Shown here one piece after another: positions 1,716-38,385 of a DNA stretch of 38,385 bases. The notes beneath the pieces were generated by a model. That model did no database searches and was not told the origin of the DNA. It worked only from the letters and a program-made list of their open reading frames with translations. This stretch comes from an archaeon (GTDB lineage Archaea > EX4484-52 > GLR71). The position numbers and the translations under genes are program-made. Numbering within the stretch: position 1 is the first letter of the stretch; each line of letters starts with the position of its first letter. The stretch is from positions 1 through 38,385 of the forward strand of contig WTCA01000043.1 in the NCBI GenBank assembly GCA_013138805.1. The letters run 5' to 3'.

Positions 1716-3380
1716 ATGATATGGCTTGACATCTTTGCAAATCTCGGCTTCATCGGCTTCTACACAATCTGGGCATTCTTCGCAGGCGCAATAGCAGTCT
1801 TTGGGGTGACAAGCAATTTCGGAAAGAAAGGCCTTATAAGAGACATATTTTTCTCATGGGTCACAGGCATCCTGCTTGTAAGCATAAGCTCTGTAGGCGC
1901 AATCATATTTGCTGTAATTCTAAGAATATTCATAATAGGCATATCAAGAAGCATAGGTATAGGATCAATATCCTCAGTCCTGTCTGCAGAAGACATGTCA
2001 AAAGTAAAGCTCAAAAAGCCTAAGACAAACATAATCATGGCTCTTGTCCTCATACTTTTTTTCTTAAACATCCTCACAGCAATCTTCGCCCCGCCCATGG
2101 AGGTCGGATGGTATAAGATGGATGATGCAGAAACCATATCTGTAAGTCCCGAGACAGAAAAAGATATACAGACAGTGCAGTGGGATGATATAAAAGATAT
2201 GCGTCTGGTCTCGCAGGAATACGCGCTCCAGATACCAAAGACAATGGTGACAGAAACAGGCTGGAAACTGTCCAGTGACTGGGACGGCATATATCCGATA
2301 GACAACACGCTTTACTGGGTGATAGCATATGAGCCTACAAGGCTTGTCAACATGGGAAATCCATCGCCCGCATATATACTTGTAGATGCGCAGGATCCTT
2401 CCAAAAGGACAAAGATACATGAAGACATAAGATACTCAGAGGAAAGAAAAGGTCTTATCCCTATTGCTTACCAGCTCCTGTTCTCCGGCAGGATACAGGA
2501 TGTATCTATAAAATACTGGCTGAACCATCCGTATTTCACTTATGGCGACACAGTCTTCACGCATGACAGTGACGGCAGCCCTGTATGGTTCGCACCTGTC
2601 AAGCTTGACTTGCCGACAATATTTGTAACCAAGTTCTATACAGTCCAGGTCGGTGTCGTGACTCTTGACAATGACGGCAAAGTTGAGTTCCACAGCGAGA
2701 GTGACATAAGAGATGGCAATGCTCCTGCATGGCTCCTTGATAACCAGGCAATAATAGATGAAGACTATACTATGACAAGAACTCTTGTATGGGCAAAGTA
2801 CGCAAGCTGGAAAGGCTTCATAAACTACTATCTCCAGCACGAGAATGTCTATGAGATTGCAAGAGAGTTCTACTTCCAGTATGATAAGCCTGATGACCGC
2901 TTTTTCGGTCTTGTGCAGCTTGAGCCTGAAGGCAGGACAAGGAAAGCAATAACCCATTATGTTGAAATAGAAGCATCGGGCACAGATTATGGCACAGTGA
3001 AAATATATGACACAAGAGCTCTGGGACTTATAGGTCCTGAGCGTGCCCTTGACGGTGCAAGAGGCGAAATCAGCCTGTATTCTGATTGGTATCCTCTCCA
3101 GCCGCTTTTCAAGAAGATAGAGAACGGATATTTCTACATTATACCTATCTATTCAGGCATCTATGAGTCTATGGTCTTAAAAGCAGTTGCAGTCGTAGAC
3201 GCAAAGACTGAGCAGGTAAAGCTTTTCCCGTGGCACGATATAGAAGCTGACGGAGAAGATATATCCTCAGACAGTCAGGAAGATGACTCAGTACTTGAAA
3301 GCTCCCGGTTTTCAGACTGCACAATCCTTTCAAGCAAAAATGTTGACGGCAAGCTCGTGATGACAATTGAATGCAAGTGA
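1716..3380 (+). CDS. Membrane protein of unknown function (N-terminal TM helices, large C-terminal domain)
   Basis: 554-aa ORF, TM-rich N-terminus; TATA-like 'atatataaata' about 26-30 nt upstream of ATG. Confidence 0.75.
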   Translation: MIWLDIFANLGFIGFYTIWAFFAGAIAVFGVTSNFGKKGLIRDIFFSWVTGILLVSISSVGAIIFAVILRIFIIGISRSIGIGSISSVLSAEDMSKVKLKKPKTNIIMALVLILFFLNILTAIFAPPMEVGWYKMDDAETISVSPETEKDIQTVQWDDIKDMRLVSQEYALQIPKTMVTETGWKLSSDWDGIYPIDNTLYWVIAYEPTRLVNMGNPSPAYILVDAQDPSKRTKIHEDIRYSEERKGLIPIAYQLLFSGRIQDVSIKYWLNHPYFTYGDTVFTHDSDGSPVWFAPVKLDLPTIFVTKFYTVQVGVVTLDNDGKVEFHSESDIRDGNAPAWLLDNQAIIDEDYTMTRTLVWAKYASWKGFINYYLQHENVYEIAREFYFQYDKPDDRFFGLVQLEPEGRTRKAITHYVEIEASGTDYGTVKIYDTRALGLIGPERALDGARGEISLYSDWYPLQPLFKKIENGYFYIIPIYSGIYESMVLKAVAVVDAKTEQVKLFPWHDIEADGEDISSDSQEDDSVLESSRFSDCTILSSKNVDGKLVMTIECK

Positions 3381-3419
3381 CTCTAAATATTTATAAACTA
3401 CTCTGACAAATTGATTACT

Positions 3420-4118
3420 ATGACTGGCTATAATTTTAAACCTAAAAATAGTAAAACACCTGCATCTATGCACAAGAAAAAGACAGTGGACACCACACCT
3501 AAATCCAATCCTCTTGCAGGGATGAAATATGTCAGGAAACCTGTCTTCATCGCAGCAGCGATTATTCTTCTTGTGTTTATCCTTGCCGGCCCGAAAATAA
3601 CAGGCAACATCCTTCTGAGCAGCGAAGACAAAGCGCTTGCAGATAACCCTGATTTCCCTGACCTTCCCGCCTTTGAGGCAAACAAGCAGTTTTATCTCTG
3701 CCAGAACCAGCTGAATGAGGAATCAGGAATACTTTCCCAGTACCAGCTTGAGCTTAATGCAAAGTCCACGACCATGGAATCCTGCCTTCAGGACAAGAGC
3801 ACAATCTCATCCCAGTACAGTTCATGCTCTTCCGACCTTTCATCATGCCTGACTAGCTTCATCGCATGCAACTCATCAAAAGAATCGCTTTCCGCAGAGA
3901 TTAAGATATGCAACGATGACCTGACAATAAAGAATCAGGACCTCTCAGAGCTTGAGCTTGAGAGCTACGCGATAAAGAATAATTATGCAGACAGCTACTG
4001 CTGCATAAAAAGAGCGGTTGACGCTAATCCTGATATCAAGTATTACAGGTTTGAGAACAATAGGGTCATATGCACAACAGACAATGATTATGAAGAATTC
4101 AACTGGGAGGGTTGTTGA
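3420..4118 (+). CDS. Single-TM protein with coiled-coil/Cys-containing extracytoplasmic region
   Basis: TM at 'PVFIAAAIILLVFILAGP'; ATG 3420 preferred over TTG 3411 because TATA-like 'aatatttataaac' lies about 28 nt upstream. Confidence 0.65.
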   Translation: MTGYNFKPKNSKTPASMHKKKTVDTTPKSNPLAGMKYVRKPVFIAAAIILLVFILAGPKITGNILLSSEDKALADNPDFPDLPAFEANKQFYLCQNQLNEESGILSQYQLELNAKSTTMESCLQDKSTISSQYSSCSSDLSSCLTSFIACNSSKESLSAEIKICNDDLTIKNQDLSELELESYAIKNNYADSYCCIKRAVDANPDIKYYRFENNRVICTTDNDYEEFNWEGC

Positions 4119-4123
4119 TAACA

Positions 4124-5491
4124 TCATTTTTTTGCATTTTTAGAATCTGTTTTCTTGGCTGTTTTTTTAGTCACTTTCTTCTTGCCTTTCTCAAACACGC
4201 CTGACTTCTTTAGAGCATATGTCGCAGGGTTAAGTATCTTCTGGCAGAACCCGTCAGGAACGCACACTTTCATGTCCTTGTAATATCCCTTGTTTTCGCA
4301 GTTGGCAGGAAGGATAGCTGCCTCTTTCTGTGCCGCGTAATTAAGCTGCGTCGTTATATAGACAGTCTTTATCGGATCTGGATTTCTCTTGTTCCATTCA
4401 AGCAGGATATCCTCAATCTCTTTCAGTGGCCAACCACATGTCATAAGAAAATTTATAAGTATGAATATCGCTCTTTTCCTCCCGTCCTCAAGCCCCTCAA
4501 GTATCTTTTTGATGCACGGGGGAAAATACTGCTCATCAATCTTTTTCAAAGGACCTTCAAATCTTTTGCCCTCATATTTATTCGGATTGTCCTTCTTCAT
4601 CTTTTTATCAAGCTCTTCCTGAATCTCAGCCCAGTCCATTGTCTCAAGAACAAGGGTCGCTGCCTCATCCTCTTCCCAGTTTTCTAGAAAGCCGATATCC
4701 CCGGGAACATTTTCCGGCTGCGCATCCTCAAACCTGAAACCGGAAATATCCTCTTTCCTCAAAGGCCTGCTCACAAGCCATGTCTTTTCATTGAAAGAGT
4801 ATGGAAGCCTGAACAGGTGCCTAACTCCCCAGTTTTCCTCGACATCAACAATATTATAAGGATCCAGTTCCTCTGATCCCTCATCCTTCATCAGCCTTTT
4901 GGAAGACTGATCTATCTCAAGGAATTTCTCAGTAAGTTGTTTTCTTATAAATGCCCGGAGAAATCCGACAATGTTTCTGGGAAGTTCAGGATACATATCG
5001 CTTATATGCCTGCCGTCAATCTTCTCGGGAAATGCCTTGTGCGATACAGCCACATGTATGCCGCGGCTCCCGCTGAACTTGGCAGATATATTCTTTATCC
5101 CGAAAGTCTCAAGAGCGCTTATCAGTAGAATCGCAGTCGCACGCGCATATTCAAACCCATGATCGCAGTCTATGTCAAGTATGAAATCCCAGCCGGAACG
5201 CAAAGAATCAAGCTCCTGCTTCTTAAGCTCGCTTGATAGTGCAAAAGGATTCTTCCACAATTCCACAGACCCGTGAAATGATGTCGCCCCTTCCTTGACC
5301 ATATACTCAAGGTCGCCGATAAAAGGCACAGACGACGGCCTTTTGCCGTAGTAGTTGGCATTGAATCTCGGCACTATCTCTTTTCCCGGGCTTATGGAAA
5401 ACATGTGCTTGAGTATCTCCGGACGCAAGTAATATTCTTTTATCTTGTCAGGCGACGGCCTCTCCGATACAGGCACCTTATCATTATCCAT
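4124..5491 (-). CDS. Archaeal primase, PriS catalytic domain fused to a PriL-CTD-like Fe-S domain
   Basis: PriS motifs 'FILDIDCDHG' and 'AKFSGSRGIHVAV', 'DVEENWGVRHLFRLPYSFNEKT'; C-terminal 'PPCIKKIL...ANCENKGYYKDMKVCVPDGFCQKILNPATY' supplies four Cys as in PriL-CTD. Confidence 0.88.
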   Translation of the reverse strand: MDNDKVPVSERPSPDKIKEYYLRPEILKHMFSISPGKEIVPRFNANYYGKRPSSVPFIGDLEYMVKEGATSFHGSVELWKNPFALSSELKKQELDSLRSGWDFILDIDCDHGFEYARATAILLISALETFGIKNISAKFSGSRGIHVAVSHKAFPEKIDGRHISDMYPELPRNIVGFLRAFIRKQLTEKFLEIDQSSKRLMKDEGSEELDPYNIVDVEENWGVRHLFRLPYSFNEKTWLVSRPLRKEDISGFRFEDAQPENVPGDIGFLENWEEDEAATLVLETMDWAEIQEELDKKMKKDNPNKYEGKRFEGPLKKIDEQYFPPCIKKILEGLEDGRKRAIFILINFLMTCGWPLKEIEDILLEWNKRNPDPIKTVYITTQLNYAAQKEAAILPANCENKGYYKDMKVCVPDGFCQKILNPATYALKKSGVFEKGKKKVTKKTAKKTDSKNAKK

Positions 5492-5678: not shown

Positions 5679-6683
5679 ATGGCACAATTGTTAAAACAGA
5701 AAGAGAAAAAGAAAGAGTTGGATAGATATGACCAACTGCTCGGAGATATCAAATCCATACTTCAAAGAGGATTATCAAAAGCATATAAAGCAGTGGATAA
5801 TCTAAAGGTCCAGACCTACTGGCAGATTGGTGAAAGAGTTGTGAGGGAAGAACTGGAGCATAAAGGACGGGCAGATTATGGTAAGAAGATTATAGACAAT
5901 TTATCTAAAGATTTGAATATTGATAGGCGTTTATTTTATAGAATCGTTAAGTTCTACAGATTATATCCTATTGTGGTGACAGTGTCCCCACAATTGAGTT
6001 GGTCACATTATGAGATATTGATAGGTATAGAAGAGAATCATATAAGGCAATTTTATGAAAATGTTTCAATAAGAAATAGCTGGAGTGTAAGGGAACTAAA
6101 GAAGAGAATAGATGATAAGGAATATGGGAACGCGCGCAAAAAAGGTGAGATAACTATCAGACTGCCTAGGCAATTGCCAAGCCCGGATGATGTTTTTAAG
6201 CAAAGTTATAACTGGGACTTTATAACTCTTGATGAACAGCATACAGAAAAAGAGCTTGAAGATGCGCTGATAAATGATATTCAGAAGACGTTACTGGAAT
6301 TCGGATGTGGTTTTGCATTTATTGGACGGCAGCAAAAAGTGTTGATAAATAATAATTGGCATAAGGTTGATTTGCTTTTTTACCATATCCTGCTGAAATG
6401 TTATATTGTGGTTGAACTTAAATCAAGAGCATTGATTCCGGGAGATATTGAGCAGGTGACAAGATACCTGACTTATTTCAGGGAAAATAAAATGCATGGA
6501 GATACAGATCCTATTGCGCTTGTGATATGCAAAAGCCATGATAAGATTGATGTGTATTACAGCGCAGGAAAAAACAGGGATGATATATTTATGGCAGAAT
6601 ATAAGACAAAACTGCCTACTGAAGACGAGATCTCAAGAAAGCTTGAAGCTCTAAAAAAGGAAATAAGAGAGAATCATTATTAG
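5679..6683 (+). CDS. DUF1016/YhcG-type PDDEXK nuclease
   Basis: N-terminal 'VDNLKVQTYWQIGERVVREE...YGKKIIDNLSKDL...LSWSHYEIL' plus C-terminal 'HKVDLLFYHILLKCYIVVELKSRALIPGDIEQVTRYL' (PD-(D/E)XK). Confidence 0.88.
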   Translation: MAQLLKQKEKKKELDRYDQLLGDIKSILQRGLSKAYKAVDNLKVQTYWQIGERVVREELEHKGRADYGKKIIDNLSKDLNIDRRLFYRIVKFYRLYPIVVTVSPQLSWSHYEILIGIEENHIRQFYENVSIRNSWSVRELKKRIDDKEYGNARKKGEITIRLPRQLPSPDDVFKQSYNWDFITLDEQHTEKELEDALINDIQKTLLEFGCGFAFIGRQQKVLINNNWHKVDLLFYHILLKCYIVVELKSRALIPGDIEQVTRYLTYFRENKMHGDTDPIALVICKSHDKIDVYYSAGKNRDDIFMAEYKTKLPTEDEISRKLEALKKEIRENHY

Positions 6684-9721: not shown

Positions 9722-11635
9722 TCATCTCCACATCTCAAAAGTCAGGTATGCAGGTCCCCACATCCAGGGTACCTGCGATATTGCAATCGCTTCATTCTCT
9801 ATGGATGTCGCTTCCGCATATTCCCCGAGAATCTCATCAAGCCGCAGGTTGGCATCTGCGATAGCTTCCTCTTTTGTCGGGAAATTGTTCCCATAGCCGA
9901 CCATTGACGGAACAAGTATGCTTAACTCAAGGGTAGATTCAGGCAGTATAACATTGTCACTGCTTCCGCCGATAAACCCGTCTCTTGCCTTTATCCAGTT
10001 GACTTCGCCCCTGTTCAGCCTGTCAAGAGGTATATATATGTCTGTCGGGACCACTCGCCCGGTGGCTGATATAAATATCTGGTAATCTTCCCATTCATTG
10101 CCTTTCCATGCAGGCTCATTCTCATCCTCGTTCCAGACAGCAATCGCAACCCTCCAGCTATAGTACTGCGCAAGATGTATAAATGCCTTGGTGATCTCCC
10201 TGTCAGGAAGCGTAAAGTTAGCCTTCTTCACAAGCTCAGGCCCGCCATTGTTGAACTCTTCAACTCCTGTGACCTCTATCATGCCGTATTTAAGTATCCC
10301 GCCGGGAACAGTATACTCAAGTTCTATATATGAATTGTTGCTCACTTCACATTCATCCTGGCCGCCTGTCTCAGGCTCGCTTCCCAGCGGGTTCATGTCA
10401 AGATAAACAGCAACAGTATTAGTCTCGCCCGTGCTGTAATACGACCCGTCAGATAAGGTGGCATGCATATGATCTATCAGGTCAGAAAAACCGAAGTCAT
10501 AGCTGTTGTTTGAAGGAGGATCATTCTCATTGTATATCTCATCAGCATTCACCCATATGCTCACTTTCTTCTCTACATAGTTTCCTTCAATATGCATTGT
10601 CACATTTGTGATATTGGCGCCTTTTGGCATATGGAACGGCACGACCTGCCATGCGGCCGCATTGCCCATAGTGTTGTCAAAATAGAACTTTTTCTTCAGG
10701 GGCTCGTAAAGCGTGTCAGACTGGTACTGCACCTTAAAGAGCATTCCCGGATGCACATAAGAACTGTGTTCACCATTCTTGATGATTAACCTGATATGAT
10801 TGCTTCCGTTGACAAGCGCACTGGCAAGCCTGCTGGAATTTATTGTGCCGTAGACTCCATAACCCTTCCCTGCATCATACTCATAATATAGCCAGTATAT
10901 GTCCGACTCGTTGAAAGATTCTCCGTTCACCAATAATCCCTCTATGTCCGGGTAATAGCGCATTGATATAACAAATGTTGCATCGCTCACCGTAGTGTTT
11001 CCCGGAAGGTCAAAATACTTGTCCACAGTCAGGTTCTCCCCGTCCCAGCCACTGCCTGCAAGATTGAAAGGTATTATCTTTGTGGAATTCTTGCGCGCCT
11101 CAACAGCCCAGGCAGACGCCACAAAGCTGTCAGAGGGTATATCTTCTTCATAACCTGATATTATCCTGTAGCCGGACACAGAAAACTTGCTTATGTTCCT
11201 GTAAGGTCTCAGCATATCTGTCTCATATATGTTTGTGTCATCACCGCTGCCTTTTATCTTCATAGAATATCCATAGCTGAGAGGTATCACATCCTCAAAG
11301 AACTGGTACACTATCTGTGATGCATAGTCTGAATCGTTGTATGCCCACAGCTTCCCAATTATGTCAGGCAGTGTCTTGTTGATCTCGTCAGCATCCACTT
11401 CTGTATTGCTTATGATTTCATCCCGCAATGTTTCGTTTATCTGGTTGAATTGCGTATTTGAAAATATGTTCATGCTGTCCACTGCATTGAGATGCAGCTG
11501 CTGAAAATTAGTCTTCTGCTGAAGAGGCCTGACATTATAGTCCATCACAAACACATATCCTGCCATGATAAGCATCAGGGCTATCAGAGCATCCAGTGTG
11601 AATATCAGCCCCTTCCGTCTTATCATATTTTCCAT
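9722..11635 (-). CDS. Large prepilin-like exported protein
   Basis: MENMIRRKGLIFTLDALIALMLIMAGYVF; large Asn/Ser/Thr-rich ectodomain with NxS/T sequons; 13-bp overlap with upstream gene. Confidence 0.75.
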   Translation of the reverse strand: MENMIRRKGLIFTLDALIALMLIMAGYVFVMDYNVRPLQQKTNFQQLHLNAVDSMNIFSNTQFNQINETLRDEIISNTEVDADEINKTLPDIIGKLWAYNDSDYASQIVYQFFEDVIPLSYGYSMKIKGSGDDTNIYETDMLRPYRNISKFSVSGYRIISGYEEDIPSDSFVASAWAVEARKNSTKIIPFNLAGSGWDGENLTVDKYFDLPGNTTVSDATFVISMRYYPDIEGLLVNGESFNESDIYWLYYEYDAGKGYGVYGTINSSRLASALVNGSNHIRLIIKNGEHSSYVHPGMLFKVQYQSDTLYEPLKKKFYFDNTMGNAAAWQVVPFHMPKGANITNVTMHIEGNYVEKKVSIWVNADEIYNENDPPSNNSYDFGFSDLIDHMHATLSDGSYYSTGETNTVAVYLDMNPLGSEPETGGQDECEVSNNSYIELEYTVPGGILKYGMIEVTGVEEFNNGGPELVKKANFTLPDREITKAFIHLAQYYSWRVAIAVWNEDENEPAWKGNEWEDYQIFISATGRVVPTDIYIPLDRLNRGEVNWIKARDGFIGGSSDNVILPESTLELSILVPSMVGYGNNFPTKEEAIADANLRLDEILGEYAEATSIENEAIAISQVPWMWGPAYLTFEMWR

Positions 11636-12126
11636 AATGTGAACCTCAGCAATCCTTTTTCTAAAGTGCCTGTGTCATCATCCTGTAAGAGAACCACTCT
11701 TTCAATAGGTGTTATGTAATAAGACTCCATATCTATCTCTTTTCCCGCAGTCTTGTATATAGTGTCGCTTTCTATAGTCAGGTTGAAATCATAGTATGCA
11801 AGCCCCCACATATAGGTGAGGTTATCATAGCTTATGTTTTCAAGTTCATTCATCCTGCTTATGTTGATTATGTTCGGGCTGTCCGCAAGGCCGGGGATGT
11901 CTATGTATGTACTGTTCCAGTCATGCGGAAATCCCGGAGTCCTTGCAAGCATGTCTGTTATGTAAAATATCTTTCTCTGCATATTATCCGACTCAAAATC
12001 AATAGTCTTGTCCTGCGCACTGTTCCATGCAAGAAAGGCAATATTTACTATGAAGATAAATATCACTGCGCTGAAGAAGAAATCAGGTGTGAATGTCTGG
12101 CCTTTCCGTAGAGCTTTATCTTTCAT
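11623..12126 (-). CDS. Prepilin-like protein
   Basis: MKDKALRKGQTFTPDFFFSAVIFIFIVNIAFLAWN: RKGQ then hydrophobic helix. Confidence 0.75.
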   Translation of the reverse strand: MKDKALRKGQTFTPDFFFSAVIFIFIVNIAFLAWNSAQDKTIDFESDNMQRKIFYITDMLARTPGFPHDWNSTYIDIPGLADSPNIINISRMNELENISYDNLTYMWGLAYYDFNLTIESDTIYKTAGKEIDMESYYITPIERVVLLQDDDTGTLEKGLLRFTLWKI

Positions 12127-12134
12127 ATCTCATC

Positions 12135-14657
12135 TTATCCTCCATTCATCTCTGCGTCTCCAACAGATATCGCAGGCATGTTCTTTCTCTGGAACAGAAG
12201 CTTCCATATAAACTGCTCAAGTATCCTTTCAGGAGCACTGGGATATGCGCTTGTCTCTGAAGCAGTTGACGGGTAGTTTGTGAAGCCTATGAACCCGCCA
12301 TAATAGTCGCATGCGCTTATCATCACCTGGCCGTCACCTTCATCAGCTTCAACGCACGATTCAGCGTATATATCAGAACCCCCCTGGTCAATATACCCGT
12401 AGCTCATAGAGTTCCTTTTAAGCTCGGATTCTATGTTGTGCGTGTATATGGTCGTCTCAAGGTCGCCGTATTTCTGATGGTTGCTTGAGACGTAGCCTGC
12501 GATAGGAAGATCTGTCGTAAGATCCTTGCTTGGCGTAAAGATAATCATCATATTGTTATTCTGCATCCATGAGTCAAAGTTGAATGTCGGGCTGTCAGAC
12601 TGCCCGAGTATCACTGCATTTTTCCCTGCATCTATATTGCTCTCCTTAAGGTTTGGCGACACAGTGCCTGTATTGGTCGTTGACCAGTCAGTGATCCATC
12701 TATTGTCCTCAAGAGACTGCAGCACATTTTCCATCTTGGTGCAATTGGAATAATAATATCCTATATGAAAAAACTGGACATCATAATCCATAGCAATTGT
12801 TGATGCATTATTTGAGATGTTCTCTGAGTTGAAATAGATGTAGTAGTTCCGTGTCTCACCCATTTCAGTTGCGCCATCAAGCATCCAGAATACATCAAGC
12901 GTCGCGTTCGTGCTCTCGTTGTATAGCGATGTCTCTTTCTTTATCATAAGCTCTATATTGTCAAAATAGGCGCCGAGACCTTCTGTTGTAGTATGGCCGT
13001 TGGAGTCGCTGTCCACCCAGTCCACCTTGCCGCCAAGATCAAGATAGTACCAGCCTTCGCCTGTTATATATTCAGTGACATAATCTTCAAACACGCCCGA
13101 TACAAGATCATCCCATCCGTTGTTCGGGTCGTCTACAGATGCCCATATCTCAGGTGTGGCATCAGAATATGCACAGTCTGTGTCAAGGTCGCTTCCAAGG
13201 TAGTTCATAGATGTGGAATTGCCGAACCTTGCCTTTATCCATGCGCCTTCCTCAAGGTCGTCGTCAAGGTCATCCGCATAATAGTCAAATAAGAGAACAG
13301 CCCATCCTCCATCCTGGATTGCAGAATACATCTCGCCTGTCACATAGAACCTGATGCCCCACGCGCCGCTGTCAAGTATCTCTTCCCCTGTGTTAGGATC
13401 ATCAGCCATGTTCCCGATTATGACAGCTATATAATTTGAATCTGCAGGAAGATCCGGTTTTGACGCTCCTGAACCAACATCTGTATCAAAGTCAGAGTCG
13501 CCGTCAGGATCGCCAAAAATCGCAAAATAATTTGCCTGGCCTGCATTATGCCCGTAAGGCGCAAGAGACGATGAATTTGTCCAGTCCCAGCCGTCATCAC
13601 TTCCTGAGACACCCCATGTATTTCCTGTCTGGTTAAGTCCGCTTGTGAAATCAATGCTTCTTGTCGCCGTATCTGCTGTCATGTCCCAGAGGTCTGGAGA
13701 CAAGATATCTATCTTCGTGATTTCCTTGCTGTTCACAGCAGTCTCATAATTCTGCTCAAGCGTATCATTCCACTCTACAATACGTATAGAGTCTGCATCA
13801 AAGCCATTGCTGTCTCCAAGGTTAGACAGCATCTGCGTGAAATTTATGCGCACCTGTACAGGATAGTCATGCCGTGCATAGTCTTCTCCTGTAATATTCA
13901 TAGATATCCTATAAGGCCAGTCTGCATCCCACCACGCTGAGCCCTGTGTGGATACGGAAAATGTCAATGATCCATACCCTATGTATCCGTCAGTATCATT
14001 GCATCTCGCGTAATATGTATATGTTCCTGTTGACAGGTTGCCTATGCCTTCATCTGCAGTCTCGTAAGGCTCGTCATATGCACCGTCATATGCATCTGTA
14101 TAGTTCCAGGTCACCTCATCATAAGAGATATAGCACCCATCAATATTCATGTTCCCTGTATATGTGTCATCAGATATGATGGTCAAAGTTATGTTGTCAT
14201 CCGGTTTCGGGTATGCAGGTGACTTTGATATCGTGACTGCCGGTACCTGCGTGTATGCAGGGTTCAGGTACAGCGAACCGCCCAGGTTTTCAATATAGTT
14301 GTATCCTTTTATGAGCTCTCCCGATATATTGTTCGTAATGATGTATGCTGCATGGGAATTGCCTGCCCAGTCGACAAAGGCAGCCTTTCTTGAGAATGTT
14401 ATATTGTAGTCATGCCCGTATATGTTATAAGGTATGTAAAACCTTTTCATGTAACCTTGCCCTGATGTCATGGCAATGTTGATTTCATAGGCAATCTTTT
14501 CGGCAATAGATATGCTAAGATGGTTTTTCTTTGCTTCAATGACATCAGCGCTGTTGTTGTTGATCACAGTGCTGTATGATGTGAATATGAGAAGGACAAA
14601 TATGATAAGAATCATAAATTCCAGCCCGCCCTGACCTTTTTTTCCGCACTTTGCCAT
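12135..14657 (-). CDS. Giant class III-signal-peptide pilin-like protein with DUF2341-type domain
   Basis: MAKCGKKGQGGLEFMILIIFVLLIF (class III signal peptide); 'WWDADWPYRISMNITGEDYARHDYPVQVRINFTQ' is DUF2341-like. Confidence 0.82.
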   Translation of the reverse strand: MAKCGKKGQGGLEFMILIIFVLLIFTSYSTVINNNSADVIEAKKNHLSISIAEKIAYEINIAMTSGQGYMKRFYIPYNIYGHDYNITFSRKAAFVDWAGNSHAAYIITNNISGELIKGYNYIENLGGSLYLNPAYTQVPAVTISKSPAYPKPDDNITLTIISDDTYTGNMNIDGCYISYDEVTWNYTDAYDGAYDEPYETADEGIGNLSTGTYTYYARCNDTDGYIGYGSLTFSVSTQGSAWWDADWPYRISMNITGEDYARHDYPVQVRINFTQMLSNLGDSNGFDADSIRIVEWNDTLEQNYETAVNSKEITKIDILSPDLWDMTADTATRSIDFTSGLNQTGNTWGVSGSDDGWDWTNSSSLAPYGHNAGQANYFAIFGDPDGDSDFDTDVGSGASKPDLPADSNYIAVIIGNMADDPNTGEEILDSGAWGIRFYVTGEMYSAIQDGGWAVLLFDYYADDLDDDLEEGAWIKARFGNSTSMNYLGSDLDTDCAYSDATPEIWASVDDPNNGWDDLVSGVFEDYVTEYITGEGWYYLDLGGKVDWVDSDSNGHTTTEGLGAYFDNIELMIKKETSLYNESTNATLDVFWMLDGATEMGETRNYYIYFNSENISNNASTIAMDYDVQFFHIGYYYSNCTKMENVLQSLEDNRWITDWSTTNTGTVSPNLKESNIDAGKNAVILGQSDSPTFNFDSWMQNNNMMIIFTPSKDLTTDLPIAGYVSSNHQKYGDLETTIYTHNIESELKRNSMSYGYIDQGGSDIYAESCVEADEGDGQVMISACDYYGGFIGFTNYPSTASETSAYPSAPERILEQFIWKLLFQRKNMPAISVGDAEMNGG

Positions 14658-14693
14658 GATAAAACCTGAATATTTTTTATTTAGAAAGATCTT

Positions 14694-15116
14694 TCAGCCG
14701 CCTGTGATATTTACCCATGTCACGCCTGATATCTTGACAGCCTGTATCGTTATGTCGTACCTGCCATTGTTCTGTGGCAGATATCCTGTGACATTGAAGT
14801 CAAATCTGTTGACAATGTCTGTGACTCCGCCATAAGCGTTCAGCCGTATCATTATCTCCCGGGAACCTATATATGTCAGGTTTATGTTTTCCGGAAATTC
14901 AGAATTGACAGTGATCTTGGCAGGCTCTCCCTGTGCAAATACAGACTCGACAGCATCGCTTATCTCGTTCACAGCCTCTTTTGCAGTCATGACATTCACC
15001 TCGCTTTTCAGGTCGGTGAGCATAGATGTGCCTTTGAGTATGACAGGCGTTATGAGAAGCATTGCAATGATGACAATAATCATGTATTCCAGCCCGGACT
15101 GGCCTTTTCGCATCAT
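14694..15116 (-). CDS. Class III signal peptide pilin
   Basis: MMRKGQSGLEYMIIVIIAMLLITPVIL: near-canonical class III (EppA-type) signal peptide. Confidence 0.85.
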   Translation of the reverse strand: MMRKGQSGLEYMIIVIIAMLLITPVILKGTSMLTDLKSEVNVMTAKEAVNEISDAVESVFAQGEPAKITVNSEFPENINLTYIGSREIMIRLNAYGGVTDIVNRFDFNVTGYLPQNNGRYDITIQAVKISGVTWVNITGG

Positions 15117-15273
15117 GCTTTTTAATTGGGTTTCTGCCGTATAAATAGATGTCCTGGGTTCTATAAGATTGTCTATGCCTGCCGACGTATCAAAAGCGAA
15201 ACCCAGTAAAGTAATAGATTTAAAGGCTGATTTTCTGAAAGATTTTTAAAGTTATAAGTAGTAACATGATATT

Positions 15274-31897: not shown

Positions 31898-31975
31898 ATT
31901 CAGCCAACAAATCAGACATATTTTATTTTACATATTTTTGGAATGTATATATACTTCTCAGCATATAGATTATTT

Positions 31976-33931
31976 ATGTTCAATATTGCTTATGATACTT
32001 TTTTTAAGGCTTTCACCAGACAATTATTCGCATTCCTCATCATCCTTGTATTGTTACCATCTGCAAGCGCCTTAACCACGACAGCAACAGTCACAATTGA
32101 AGATCCCAACAGCGCTGTTATCGTAAACAATGCGCCGATGACCTGCGGTGCGGTTGTCTGTGTCGGCAATTTCGGCGAGGCCGACTGCACATATACCTAT
32201 GATTTTTCCACCTGTACTGTCTGGGGCGACTATAATGTAACTATCACCTATACTCATTCAGGGACAAACTGCGATGCAACTGCTCTTGATCCTGTTACAG
32301 TTGTGGAAACATATGAATACTTTATATATAATTGTCCCGATACCCAGGCACCAACTACATCAGATAATTACAGCGCAGAAGATGGTGTCTGGCAGAATTC
32401 CGACCAGACAATAATGCTTACAGAAAGCGACCCTATTCCATCCTCAGGCATATCTTCTACACAATACTGCATAGACACGACAGATACATGCATACCTTCT
32501 ATAGATTATGTAAACCCTGTCACCATCTCAACTGAAGGGACAAGCTACTTCAGGTACCGCTCTACAGACAATGCAGGCAATGTCCAGACTATTGTCAGCA
32601 GGGCAGTCATGATTGACAAGACCGCATTTTCAGTAGATGCAGGAACTGATAAGACAAGCAATTCAATATTCACTCAGGATGCCACAGTGACTGCTTCATT
32701 ATCCGGTATATCCTCTTATTCATGGACTAAAATATCAGGTCCGGGAAACATAATATTTGGTTCGCCTGCAGCCGAAGACACAACAATATGGGCAGATACG
32801 GACGGGACATACGTCATAAGGCTGACTGTAATAGATAATGCAGGGAACACTGTCTCAGATGAGATGACTTTGGTCTGGGATATAGTAGACCCTACAACCT
32901 CTGATAATTACGCAAGCGATAATATATGGGTCACAGCAGACCAGACAATAACACTTACCCCTACAGATCCTGCTCCGTCTTCAGGCATAAGTTCAACAAA
33001 ATATTGTATTGACACTACAGATGTATGCATACCTTCAACAGACTATACAATTCCTGTACCTATATCATCCGAAGGGATAAACTATTTCAGGTACAGGTCT
33101 GTTGACAATGCAGGAAATGTGCAGAGCATAGTATCGAAAATAGTAAAGATTGATAAGGGTCCGCCGTCAATCTTGATAGAATCTCCTTTGGGCGTAGTAT
33201 ATGGCACGCAGTGGATATGGTTCAATATTACTGCGACTGAATCTCATACTTCAGTTGACTGGTGCGGTTTCAGCCTAAACGGGTCTTCTAATATCACTTT
33301 ATCTGAAGATATGCCAACTCATTTCTCTTATTTCAATGATACAGTATATCTTGGAAATTATAATGTTGTTTTCTACTGCAATGACTCAAACGGTCTGATG
33401 GACAGCGCTGAAATTGATTTTGATGTCCAGTATGGCTGCACTGACGGGGTGCCTGACTATGATACCAAATGCAGTGTGGTATGTGGTGCAGATGCTGAAT
33501 GTGATGAAGATATCCATGGAGAATATAAAGACTACTGCCATATATCCGGGTTTACATATTTCATTGATATGTGCAGCGATGCATGCCTGTTGATTGATGA
33601 TACTCAACAGGTATGCAACAATACAGGCACTAATTGTGGTGGCGCTGACGTTGAATGTGACGGGTACACTACAGGGGAATGCTTTCCGGACGGCCTGCAT
33701 TTCTGCAACGCTCTCTGCCAGAACGAGACAGCATCCGGCAACTGCATACCAACACCTGTGATGAGGAAAGCTCTTGTGCATTACACTGTAGATCCTTATA
33801 ATCGCAAGCTTGAGATTAATGCAATAAAATGCCTGATAAGAATATATCTTGGAGCCACATGCAGTGACCCGAGGAGACAGGAATATATTGAAATAGCCAA
33901 AACTCTCCCTGATTCAATCCTTCCTAATTGA
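31976..33931 (+). CDS. Secreted surface protein with Ig-like/PKD-like repeats and Cys-rich C-terminus
   Basis: Signal peptide 'FAFLIILVLLPSASA'; two near-identical about 90-aa modules; ATG 31976 is about 27 nt after TATA-like 'gtatatatac' (track start 31943). Confidence 0.75.
   Translation: MFNIAYDTFFKAFTRQLFAFLIILVLLPSASALTTTATVTIEDPNSAVIVNNAPMTCGAVVCVGNFGEADCTYTYDFSTCTVWGDYNVTITYTHSGTNCDATALDPVTVVETYEYFIYNCPDTQAPTTSDNYSAEDGVWQNSDQTIMLTESDPIPSSGISSTQYCIDTTDTCIPSIDYVNPVTISTEGTSYFRYRSTDNAGNVQTIVSRAVMIDKTAFSVDAGTDKTSNSIFTQDATVTASLSGISSYSWTKISGPGNIIFGSPAAEDTTIWADTDGTYVIRLTVIDNAGNTVSDEMTLVWDIVDPTTSDNYASDNIWVTADQTITLTPTDPAPSSGISSTKYCIDTTDVCIPSTDYTIPVPISSEGINYFRYRSVDNAGNVQSIVSKIVKIDKGPPSILIESPLGVVYGTQWIWFNITATESHTSVDWCGFSLNGSSNITLSEDMPTHFSYFNDTVYLGNYNVVFYCNDSNGLMDSAEIDFDVQYGCTDGVPDYDTKCSVVCGADAECDEDIHGEYKDYCHISGFTYFIDMCSDACLLIDDTQQVCNNTGTNCGGADVECDGYTTGECFPDGLHFCNALCQNETASGNCIPTPVMRKALVHYTVDPYNRKLEINAIKCLIRIYLGATCSDPRRQEYIEIAKTLPDSILPN
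32336..33153 (+). repeat. Two copies of an about 90-aa coding module flanking a PKD-like domain
   Basis: 'TTSDNY...DQTI.LT..DP.PSSGISST.YCIDTTD.CIPS.DY..PV.IS.EG..YFRYRS.DNAGNVQ.IVS..V.IDK' occurs twice. Confidence 0.8.
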
Positions 33932-34704: not shown

Positions 34705-35118
34705 ATGACTGACAAAGCCACTATGTCTAATATTGAATTGAATAATGATAAATCCCATGCTCTAGTTTCTGTCAATCCGCAGATATATGACAAGGAGATC
34801 ATATATTCCGCAGCATATGCGATGATTGACAGGGCATATATAGTGATTGACGGCGACCCTGAAAAAAAAGTTCTTGTAGAGATCAGACCTAAAGACAGCA
34901 GCAACGATGCAGGTCAGCTGGCTCTTGAATTCAACGAGGAGCTGATAAATTACGCAGTATACAAGTCGCAGGCAAGGCAGAACAAAGACCTTAGGAAAGC
35001 TATAATAAATCTTGCATTCACCACAAACAGCGTGCCTGACACCTGCAGCGATGATAATGATACATACATCGACGACCCGGAAGGCATAGCAAAGCCCTGG
35101 ACTCCCCAGGAAAAATGA
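34705..35118 (+). CDS. HxsD-like protein (His-Xaa-Ser system), copy 1
   Basis: 'VSVNPQIYDKEIIYSAAYAMIDRAYIVIDGDPEKKVLVEIRPKD...LALEFNEELINYAVYKSQARQNKDLRKAIINLAF' matches the HxsD pattern (EF.NEL..Y ... R.. I...AF); TATA-like element about 33 nt upstream. Confidence 0.7.
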   Translation: MTDKATMSNIELNNDKSHALVSVNPQIYDKEIIYSAAYAMIDRAYIVIDGDPEKKVLVEIRPKDSSNDAGQLALEFNEELINYAVYKSQARQNKDLRKAIINLAFTTNSVPDTCSDDNDTYIDDPEGIAKPWTPQEK

Positions 35119-35134
35119 GACTTGATTGATATCT

Positions 35135-35383
35135 ATGGATTCCGTTCAGACAGACCAAGACGAGAACATCGTAAAAGTTAAGCTAAACCTTGATTTTTAC
35201 AGTGTTGAAGATGTGCTTGCGGCAACGAAAGATTTCTTTGATCTGGGGCAGATAAACATGGCTGTTGATGATAAGAACAACAATGTCATAATCACGATAA
35301 GCCCAAAAGATAAAGCTGATAGGCTGGAGACCATAGGCTACGAGTTCTGCAACTATGTGCTTGGGATGACAAAAAACAGGTGA
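35135..35383 (+). CDS. HxsD-like protein, copy 2 (shorter)
   Basis: 'VKLNLDFYSVEDVLAATKDFFDLGQINMAVDDKNNNVIITISPKDKADRLETIGYEFCNYVLG' parallels copy 1; ATG 35135 preferred to TTG 35126. Confidence 0.6.
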   Translation: MDSVQTDQDENIVKVKLNLDFYSVEDVLAATKDFFDLGQINMAVDDKNNNVIITISPKDKADRLETIGYEFCNYVLGMTKNR

Positions 35384-35388
35384 TTTTT

Positions 35389-36822
35389 ATGGCTGAAAGC
35401 TTTTTTGACTATCCTGCTGTCGGAAACTATATATCTAACAGATATTTCCAGAAAAAGCTGGCTGACGGGAAGATGCTTATAACCACAGACCATGGCGCCT
35501 GGATTGTTCTCACACAGGAAGAATATGGGCTTCTTAGAAAAGGCAAGGTGGAGGAAAATCCCGACCTCTTCAACAATCTGTTAAAGACTGGCGTTCTTGT
35601 ATCAAAAGATAATATACAGGATATCAGCCAGTGCTTCTACAGGAGAAACTGCCAGCTGACAAACGGCGTCAATCTTCATATTCTCACACCCACCCTCAGA
35701 TGCAACCATTCATGCATATACTGCCACGCCAAATCAGTACCGTTAGACACGCAGGGGCATGACATGGACGAGGATACAGCAAAAAAGATTGTAGACTTTA
35801 TCTTTCAGTCGCCTGCAAAGAAAATAACAATAGAGTTTCAGGGCGGCGAGCCTCTTGCCAATTTCCCGATAGTTGAGTATGTGATAGAGTATGCAAAAGA
35901 AAAGAACAAGACAGCTCATAAGGATATCGCCTACCTAATTGTCTCAAACCTGACCATGATGGACGAGACCATACTCAAATATCTTATAAAAAACAAAGTT
36001 CAGCTCTGCAGCTCTCTTGACGGGCCAAAAAAGGTGCATGACAGGAACAGGTATTATTGTGACAACAAAGGAAGCTACAATGATGTTGTTCACTGGTTGG
36101 ACATAATCATGAATGACCATAAATACAATATCCATTGCCTGCCGACAATAACCCGCCACTCACTCCCGTATGCGAAAGAGATTGTGGATGAATATGTGCG
36201 ATTAGGCTTTGACAGGATACGCATGCGACATCTGATGAACTCTGGATTTGCAAACAAGAGATGGAAAGAGATTGGCTACACTCCTGAAGAGTTTCTGGCT
36301 TTCTGGAAAGAAAGTGTCGCGTATTGTATGGACATCACAAGAAAAGGCACACAATTCCTTGAAGGCATGAGCGTCATGGCTGCCCGGAAATTCCTGTCCA
36401 AAGACAGGACTGCATACACCTGTTTCAGTTCGCCGTGCGGTGCAGGGCTTGAGCAGGCTTCCTATAATTTCAACGGTGACATATATGCATGCGACGAGGC
36501 AAGGTCGTATGATGTTTTCCGTCTTGGCAATGTGAAAGATAAGACATTCAAAGAAGTCTATACAGGACAGCAGGCACTGACACTTGTAGACCTGTCATCA
36601 TCCCTGTCAAGCCACTGCGACTTCTGTGTCTGGCATGCATACTGCGGAAACTGTCTTGTAACAACTTACGGCGAGCAGAATAACCTTATACCAAAACTGC
36701 CGGTAAACAATGAGTGCAAGATAAGAAAAGGCATTATTGAGCATACATTTGATCTTCTATGGTATGATAAAGAAGCCAGAAAGACTCTTATAGATTGGTC
36801 TGCTACGGAAAAAGGCGTATAA
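35389..36822 (+). CDS. HxsB-like radical SAM/SPASM maturase
   Basis: rSAM CX3CX2C 'LRCNHSCIYCHA', 'EFQGGEPLANF', SPASM-type 'CGAGLEQASYNFNGDIYACDEARSYDVFRLGNVKD...CDFCVWHAYCGNCLV'; ATG 35389 preferred to GTG 35380. Confidence 0.85.
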   Translation: MAESFFDYPAVGNYISNRYFQKKLADGKMLITTDHGAWIVLTQEEYGLLRKGKVEENPDLFNNLLKTGVLVSKDNIQDISQCFYRRNCQLTNGVNLHILTPTLRCNHSCIYCHAKSVPLDTQGHDMDEDTAKKIVDFIFQSPAKKITIEFQGGEPLANFPIVEYVIEYAKEKNKTAHKDIAYLIVSNLTMMDETILKYLIKNKVQLCSSLDGPKKVHDRNRYYCDNKGSYNDVVHWLDIIMNDHKYNIHCLPTITRHSLPYAKEIVDEYVRLGFDRIRMRHLMNSGFANKRWKEIGYTPEEFLAFWKESVAYCMDITRKGTQFLEGMSVMAARKFLSKDRTAYTCFSSPCGAGLEQASYNFNGDIYACDEARSYDVFRLGNVKDKTFKEVYTGQQALTLVDLSSSLSSHCDFCVWHAYCGNCLVTTYGEQNNLIPKLPVNNECKIRKGIIEHTFDLLWYDKEARKTLIDWSATEKGV

Positions 36823-36831
36823 GATATATAT

Positions 36832-37182
36832 ATGAGTCCTGACAATATACTTTTAGTTGCTATGTCAAAAATACCGAAAATAAAGAGACTGATATCTTCA
36901 TTCCTGACAGAAGAGGAGGGAAAGATATCAAAGAACGCAATTCTTGTAGGCGGCGGCATAATAGCTGCTGTGACTTTGACATCCAGGCAGGCAACAGCAC
37001 ATACGGACAGCAATCCTGCGCATAATGATTCTTCCACGCCTGCAAATTACATAAGCGGCGAGGTCAGGACAACGCACTCGCATTATGATCCTGCCCACAC
37101 AAACCATGCATCACATTCATCGCATGGGTCTCATGGTTCTCACGGTTCGCATAACAGTCATGGGAGCTGTCTTTGCACTTAG
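36832..37182 (+). CDS. HxsA-like His-Xaa-Ser repeat peptide (putative modification substrate)
   Basis: C-terminus 'HASHSSHGSHGSHGSHNSHGSCLCT'; N-terminal hydrophobic segment 'NAILVGGGIIAAVTL'; immediately downstream of the rSAM gene; ATG 36862 also possible. Confidence 0.8.
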   Translation: MSPDNILLVAMSKIPKIKRLISSFLTEEEGKISKNAILVGGGIIAAVTLTSRQATAHTDSNPAHNDSSTPANYISGEVRTTHSHYDPAHTNHASHSSHGSHGSHGSHNSHGSCLCT

Positions 37183-37436: not shown

Positions 37437-38354
37437 TTACAGGAACCATTTATCCGGATTCCCATAATTTAACATATATTTTAGTTCATATCTGCAGGTG
37501 ATGTCTTCTGTTCTCATAAATTCATTCGCTTCTTCACGCAATGTCTCTGTATCAAGACTGCAGAAATGATTGTTTTTAATAGAATATACATAATTGCATC
37601 CGCTTTTACCTTCATCAGCAATATCTGAACCGCAAAGCTTATCTGATACTATATCAGAATATGCTTCAAACCTGTCTGGTCCTACACTAAGCTTCTCTTT
37701 AAGCCCGCTTATATCGCCTGCATCGCTGAAGAAAAGAATCGTATAGTATCCTTGCTCATCTGTCACAGGAGCCGGAAGCTCAATAAACCGCCCAAACCAC
37801 ATTGCCTCTTCTTCGTCCGACATAAGGTTCATGAGCTTTTTTGAATATACATAATAACTTACATCTTTTATGTTATCATAAGTCAGCTGGGGCCTGTATT
37901 TTTCAAACCGTGCCTTGATAGGATAGGCTGCCAGAACTTCTTTATCAGACATCTCATCTATGTTCTTGCTGAACCATATCATGTAATGCAGGAATTCGTA
38001 AGGGCATTCACCTGCGCAGTTTATATATGTCTTTTGAATCGTATCTTTCGTGGCAGCTTTATTAAATGTTGAGGGAGGTATCTGTTGACCTGAAAGCCCG
38101 TAGGAATCAACATAGATAGGCATTGATGTCTTAAAAGCAAATAAATCTTCACGCAAAGATGCAAGTTCACCGGCTGAAGGCATCTGAACATCTGAAGTAT
38201 CTGTATCAACTGAAGTACCTGTATCATCTGAAGTGCCTGTATCAACAGGAGTGCCTGCATCAATAGAATCATCTGTCTGATAATGCTGATAAACCGCATA
38301 ACTTGACACAAGCAGTATAATTACAGCAATAATCGTAATCTTACTAGAATCCAT
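37437..38354 (-). CDS. Membrane-anchored extracytoplasmic protein of unknown function
   Basis: N-terminal TM 'ITIIAVIILLVSSYAVYQHY', Asp/Thr/Ser repeat linker, Cys-containing globular domain. Confidence 0.7.
   Translation of the reverse strand: MDSSKITIIAVIILLVSSYAVYQHYQTDDSIDAGTPVDTGTSDDTGTSVDTDTSDVQMPSAGELASLREDLFAFKTSMPIYVDSYGLSGQQIPPSTFNKAATKDTIQKTYINCAGECPYEFLHYMIWFSKNIDEMSDKEVLAAYPIKARFEKYRPQLTYDNIKDVSYYVYSKKLMNLMSDEEEAMWFGRFIELPAPVTDEQGYYTILFFSDAGDISGLKEKLSVGPDRFEAYSDIVSDKLCGSDIADEGKSGCNYVYSIKNNHFCSLDTETLREEANEFMRTEDITCRYELKYMLNYGNPDKWFL
38187..38279 (-). repeat. Degenerate coding tandem repeat (Asp-Thr-Gly-Thr-Ser type linker)
   Basis: Product segment 'DAGTPVDTGTSDDTGTSVDTDTSDV'. 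Confidence 0.65.
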
Positions 38355-38385
38355 AATATAATTTATGGTTGTTCCGCTATATATC

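Follow-up and report, generated by a model that had tools for sequence, protein, structure and literature searches.

The window, i.e. the whole stretch of 38,385 nucleotides analysed here, carries close to its end four tightly spaced genes read in one direction, in the order and on the strand given by the first-pass annotation (Table 1). They encode HxsD, an HxsD-like paralogue, the radical SAM (rSAM)/SPASM enzyme HxsB and a small His-Xaa-Ser (HxS) peptide. The HxsD-like and HxsB genes overlap by 4 bases and a gap of 9 bases separates HxsB from the peptide gene; translation of HxsD-like and HxsB probably starts at the ATG codons at 35135 and 35389, respectively. The host is a tiny symbiotic-type DPANN archaeon with a reduced genome (1.33 Mb in 103 contigs, 92.7% complete) and shares its genus with genome G004.

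Extent of the cluster

The window ends 1.2 kb past the peptide gene. Its last 127 bp (38259..38385) are 100% identical to the first 127 bp of contig C86 (C86:1-127), and this junction sequence has only two copies in the genome at such identity. Contig L075 of the sister genome G002 crosses the same join unbroken and carries HxsB, the peptide, the membrane-anchored gene and the SPASM rSAM gene. At its other end C86 runs into contig C23 through a 600-bp overlap with that contig's start (95% identity); the mismatches suggest strain variation in the assembly, and the C86-C23 gene order is taken from G002 contig L184, which spans this join. The assemblies are MAGs, and the joins were drawn from contig overlaps together with the sister genome. 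Followed across them, the predicted locus runs about 17 kb further (C86 146-8046, then C23 1-8523) and the whole putative Hxs RiPP cluster measures about 20 kb. The four window genes are the precursor-and-first-enzyme end of this large cluster.

The part beyond the window begins about 1.2 kb past the peptide and holds a contiguous array of nine rSAM proteins: two of the HxsC clade, four further HxsC-like ones, one SPASM protein and two tandem fusions. HxsB brings the total to ten rSAM proteins with about twelve rSAM domains, two per fusion. The description of the system as compact and reduced in the first-pass annotation does not survive this extension.

Table 1. Positions of the genes in the window and in the adjoining contigs C86 and C23.
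Feature	Position	Strand	Family match
PKD-domain surface protein gene, 5' part	window 31940..33124	+	PF22352 PKD, 43.9 bits
HxsD (137 aa)	window 34705..35118	+	TIGR03976, 51.2 bits, just above cut-off 50 (NCBIfam)
HxsD-like paralogue (85 aa)	window 35126..35383	+	NF038315 (HxsD_rel), 62.3 bits over the full model, cut-off 41
HxsB radical SAM/SPASM maturase (480 aa)	window 35380..36822	+	TIGR03978, 404.7 bits, cut-off 370
HxS precursor peptide (116 aa)	window 36832..37182	+	HxsA4/HxsA3 matches under cut-off
Signal-anchored protein, several Cys	window 37437..38354	-	no Pfam or NCBIfam match
SPASM rSAM	C86 146-1417	-	
HxsC4-like + B12-binding + second rSAM (BchE/HpnJ-like) tandem fusions, two	C86 1489-3621, 3645-5741	+	
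HxsC4-like rSAM	C86 5752-6741	-	
HxsD homologue	C86 6690-7130	-	
A24 peptidase	C86 7096-8046	-	
DUF362	C23 966-2084	-	
DUF483	C23 2122-3021	-	
HxsC-like rSAMs, five	C23, between 3025 and 8523	-	

An 83%-identical copy of the PKD surface-protein gene (C23:8605-9795) lies beyond the array, and the resulting direct repeat of host genes around the cluster offers a possible route for its gain, loss or amplification. A membrane-anchored gene containing cysteines occupies the position matching 37437..38354 in several related loci; its candidacy as a conserved family was rejected, as phmmer shows no similarity between most of these loci. A repeat-rich ORF beside the array (L041:689-979) was likewise rejected as a second His-rich precursor, being a short tandem repeat without a His-rich frame. 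This repeat (TATGACATCAACAATAAT-like, at about 780-960 of L041) is situated between the A24 and DUF362 genes and contains no meaningful frame.

Protein families, folds and the precursor peptide

HxsD, HxsD-like and HxsB all score above the NCBI curated cut-offs, so the label "Hxs" proposed in the first-pass annotation is right. AlphaFold models of HxsD (pLDDT 86.8) and HxsD-like (pLDDT 90.9) have the same beta-alpha-beta-beta-alpha-alpha fold, and comparison of their profiles by hhalign (probability 98.5%, E 3e-15) demonstrates that the two proteins, already paired as HxsD-like by the annotation, are homologous. The nearest solved fold is that of RNA polymerase RPB11/RpoL, followed at a lower level by DCoH, both being dimerisation folds; the RPB11-like matches have weak E-values (5e-3 and 1e-2) at a probability of about 1.0, and a sequence search of solved structures gave no match for HxsD. 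HxsB contains the Pfam domains Radical_SAM and SPASM, with Cys108/112/115 in the previously noticed CNHSCIYC motif and SPASM-type cysteines as well.

The HxsC-clade pair of the array (C23:3025-4932 and 5819-6661) matches nearly the full TIGR03977 model with 200.4 and 190.5 bits, the HxsC cut-off of 267.9 bits being reached by no gene in the genome. For HxsC4 (NF038332, cut-off 500 bits) the best array member scores 168.2 bits. Two trees place canonical HxsC together with a single array member from most clusters (support 1.0 in one of the trees) and show three further HxsC-like groups to which clusters from different phyla contribute (one group has support 0.999), at least four recurring HxsC-like groups in all. 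Since the groups are shared across phyla, the array represents an inherited or transferred set; a recent duplication on the spot does not account for it. DUF483 domains are recurrent in the arrays, either by themselves or joined to HxsC-like rSAM proteins (C23 (L041) 2122-4932; L164, L165, L179); in the open-licence literature searched no function of DUF483 alongside rSAM enzymes was found.

The precursor consists of the leader PKIKRLISSFLTEEEGKISK, a hydrophobic segment, seven in-register HxS repeats and a C-terminal CLCT. Its matches to the NCBIfam models HxsA4 (NF038313, 38.7 bits, cut-off 55) and HxsA3 (NF038309, 36.7 bits, cut-off 65) lie below the cut-offs and both span leader and repeat. 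The leader is kept from DPANN to bacteria (consensus PKIKKxIxSFLxxEEGKIxK), and that of the window is homologous to the leaders of bacterial peptides above the HxsA4 cut-off (L114 64.1, L120 58.1, L146 89.2 and L124 97.8 bits). In five related genomes the HxsA4 model gave no match at all, G001 and G051 with their HxS peptides included, which means that it under-detects archaeal members. Judged from its sequence, the window peptide is a divergent HxsA4/A3-type precursor; the search of the genome found no other HxS peptide. The classical prepilin cleavage motif is absent from the leader.

The seven-unit run did not arise in any of 20,000 shuffles of the identical residues, Ser codons of the TCN and AGY types are mixed within it, and comparison with sister genome G002 shows 22 synonymous against 2 non-synonymous changes (dN/dS 0.022). 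These three observations together show that the precursor is a selected protein and no satellite; a DNA microsatellite as the source of the repeat is ruled out by the mixed codons and the dN/dS value. The small HxS peptide reported earlier is therefore genuine.

Recurrence of the gene set

Profiles for the array, the leader and the A24 peptidase were built for the present analysis. With our own thresholds (HxsB at least 220 bits, HxsC-like at least 90 bits), 25 of 101 archaeal genomes have both HxsB and HxsC-like genes, 2 have HxsB only, 1 has HxsC-like genes only and 73 have neither (Fisher p 2.8e-20; 1e-16 without the genus and 2e-4 without the whole order). The 80 HxsB loci (the window's own and 79 from the genome collection) are not phylogenetically independent and many lie on short contigs; read in this way, two HxsD-fold genes adjoin HxsB in 58, an HxS peptide or leader is found within 600 bp in 43, and an HxsC-like gene within 6.5 kb in 52. 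On the longer stretches, Fermentimicrarchaeum, Woesearchaeota, Diapherotrites, further archaea and one genome of the Patescibacteria show a multi-rSAM array close to the HxsB operon. Patescibacteria, Azambacteria, Deltaproteobacteria and other bacteria also possess the HxsD-HxsDlike-HxsB core together with peptides of the HxsA4 type, the version in Elusimicrobia and Schekmanbacteria having one D gene. The earlier phrase "archaeal version" is thus correct as to the host and the Hxs type, but the arrangement is not specific to archaea.

Several loci depart from the window's layout. Same-genus genomes (L044, L046, L048) have a second arrangement, HxsD - HxsC-like - HxsD-like - HxsB, with the HxS peptide of L048 lying 6 kb off at 14777-15160 (-); G004 possesses both arrangements. 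In other families of the order, HxsD-HxsC-HxsB loci with HxsB under the cut-off carry Trp-rich W-x-N/D precursors in place of HxS (L064 8986-9309, L069 5803-6093, L072 9606-9905, L060 2151-2444, L062 85-378) and have a membrane-protein gene next after HxsB; upstream, L069, L072 and L074 also contain several short type IV pilin-like genes. None of the findings that the first-pass annotation had named as contrary to its reading (an unrelated rSAM family for the enzyme, no HxsD match, homologous loci lacking the HxS peptide) was encountered outright. The locus of genome G067 (L053 8398-8763) retains HxsD, HxsD-like, HxsB and the precursor leader and has lost the HxS repeat.

Of about 36 archaeal loci with sufficient sequence, 22 have an A24 (prepilin-type) peptidase gene immediately upstream of HxsD and in its orientation; the bacterial loci surveyed have none there. 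The window genome has its cluster copy on C86/C23, and this copy exceeds the cut-offs of both Peptidase_A24 (PF01478, C23:408-689, 34.3 bits, cut-off 26.5) and the archaeal C-terminal domain (PF06819, 26.1 bits, cut-off 23.4). Ten genomes checked contain one to three A24 genes, mostly with one separate copy away from the cluster. At 11623-15116 (-) the window also encodes proteins whose N-termini are class III-like (pilin), such as MMRKGQSGLEYMI at 15116; these would need an A24 peptidase too.

Comparison with known systems and possible chemistry

The canonical bacterial Hxs cassette (HxsA/A2, HxsD, HxsB, HxsC; Nostoc sp. C057 plasmid p057_G, Methylobacter YRD-M1) likewise has HxsD adjoining HxsB, an HxsC-clade enzyme and a His-Xaa-Ser precursor. 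Its HxsB is about 30% identical to that of the window, and in the two cassettes viewed a single HxsC follows straight after HxsB, with no array or A24 gene within 4 kb. Measured against the HxsA4, HxsA3, HxsD_rel and HxsC4 models of NCBIfam, the window's HxsD-like protein is above and the peptide and the array enzymes are below the respective cut-offs. The cluster very probably is an Hxs system and would work like one: HxsB and HxsD agree with their families above the cut-offs, while HxsC and the precursor are homologous with scores below theirs. It is not filed as an HxsC4 or a triceptide system, whose cut-offs its proteins do not reach. Triceptide systems (XncB, OscB/GrrM, MscB, HaaB, YhhB) similarly place short aromatic-x-residue repeats beside a SPASM rSAM enzyme, and H-x-S conforms to this core motif. 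In contrast to them, the rSAM family of HxsB is a different one, the cluster has two helpers of the HxsD fold and an array of several rSAM enzymes, and the product is a predicted one. Neither an NCBIfam model nor an open-licence paper was found for the array, the B12 fusions and the A24 link; open-licence papers on DPANN rSAM RiPPs, HxsA-D/His-Xaa-Ser, DUF483 with rSAM and prepilin peptidase with rSAM contain nothing on the present arrangement, and the product and role of His-Xaa-Ser systems are not described in this literature.

From the gene families, the contiguity of the cluster, the selection on the peptide and the recurrence of the set across phyla we infer the following path for this small, exported-looking peptide. 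The HxsD/HxsD-like pair, with its predicted RPB11/DCoH-type dimerisation fold, would bind the conserved leader together with the N-terminal part of HxsB. HxsB, cleaving SAM, and the HxsC-clade enzymes of the array would then walk along the H-x-S repeats and, by analogy with triceptides, might couple each His imidazole to Cbeta of the Ser at position i+2, so that the core becomes a string of three-residue rings. The further HxsC-like enzymes and the two B12-type rSAM fusions could add other modifications, e.g. C-methylation, and the dedicated A24 peptidase would cut off the leader near the hydrophobic segment. The stiffened, His-rich and probably metal-binding chain would finally be displayed outside the cell. 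This explanation of the locus as a large Hxs RiPP cluster with leader-guided His-Ser crosslinking, leader removal and display has, taken whole, an even chance in our judgement. Some rSAM modification of the repeat is very likely; a His-Ser ring within it is possible rather than probable.

The precedents for such rings made by rSAM enzymes are the i,i+2 links Phe C4-Ser Cbeta (MscB), His C2-Ala Cbeta (HaaB), His C2-Arg Cbeta (YhhB) and Trp-Asn/Asp (OscB) (PMC11002830). The HxS motif, by this analogy, would unite the His half and the Ser half of known i,i+2 rings, and the W-x-N/D repeats of related archaeal HxsB/HxsC loci (e.g. L064) represent the other classical triceptide motif and match OscB-type sites. 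Homology of HxsB itself does not predict the i,i+2 C-C bond, as by its matches the enzyme stands closer to maturases for thioethers and sulfatases than to GrrM/OscB, the cyclophane family: its nearest solved structures are 5wgg (CteB, thioether maturase) and 4k37 (anSME, sulfatase maturase), PapB (161.6 bits) is the second-best NCBIfam model ahead of nif11 (143.3) and SCIFF (128.8), the GrrM/OscB model gives 65.5 bits against an NCBIfam cut-off of 310, and the other 3-CyFE families (XncB, FxsB/MscB, HaaB) are not recognisable among the 25 best NCBIfam models listed. These relatives lend weight to a serious, if somewhat doubtful, alternative, in which the Hxs enzymes modify the repeat, for instance by oxidising Ser to formylglycine, by epimerisation, by C-methylation or by forming thioethers with C-terminal cysteines, and make no His-Ser crosslink. 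Several precursors, that of the window among them, do end in a region with Cys, and the B12-type fusions suggest methylation. Many others lack Cys and end in W or Y, so that thioethers are not the common product, and a strict three-residue period in which both His and Ser are retained agrees more with an i,i+2 link than with chemistry on single residues.

The array could also serve a second substrate. That the cluster combines two neighbouring functions, HxsB and HxsD modifying the HxS peptide and the array with its DUF483, DUF362 and B12 components making an unrelated small molecule or modifying another surface protein, is improbable. The array and the HxsB operon often lie on opposite strands a few kb apart, and the membrane-anchored Cys gene and the PKD surface proteins in and around the cluster are possible other targets; but HxsC-clade members of the array group with canonical HxsC at the support given above, and HxsC-like genes occur in 25/27 archaeal genomes with HxsB against 1/74 without it. 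A stand-alone system in which HxsB alone, with no HxsC, modifies the peptide is hardly credible and was rejected: no HxsC gene lies in the window, none reaches the cut-off genome-wide and G067 combines HxsB with no HxsC-like gene at E <= 1e-18, but its repeat is gone, and the contig joins, the sister-genome contigs and the trees place two HxsC-clade genes in the cluster.

The crosslinking explanation can be carried further, to a conserved assembly line, common to DPANN archaea and some bacteria, in which one precursor would be worked on by HxsB, by HxsC and by at least three additional recurring rSAM groups (here also by the two HxsC4-like/B12-rSAM fusions) and then set free by a private prepilin-type peptidase as a heavily crosslinked, His-rich surface fibre; in this full form we regard it as rather unlikely. 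In the polytheonamide and bottromycin RiPP clusters several radical enzymes, some of them cobalamin-binding, act on one precursor. Here, by comparison, ten rSAM proteins with about twelve domains are gathered in one cluster of a reduced-genome archaeon, and if all of them act on one peptide, the pathway would be among the most radical-enzyme-dense peptide pathways known to us. Because a private peptidase accompanies at least five recurring enzyme groups, the order of action, the recognition of the leader and the product are testable by co-expression. The HxS and Trp-x-Asn/Asp cores with their related enzymes form a natural pair for probing HxsB as a cyclophane former. Hxs systems in bacteria range from plasmid-borne cassettes to candidate phyla; if all the enzymes do serve one peptide, the upkeep of such a cluster by a 1.3-Mb genome with few genes to spare suggests that the product matters for the organism's way of life.
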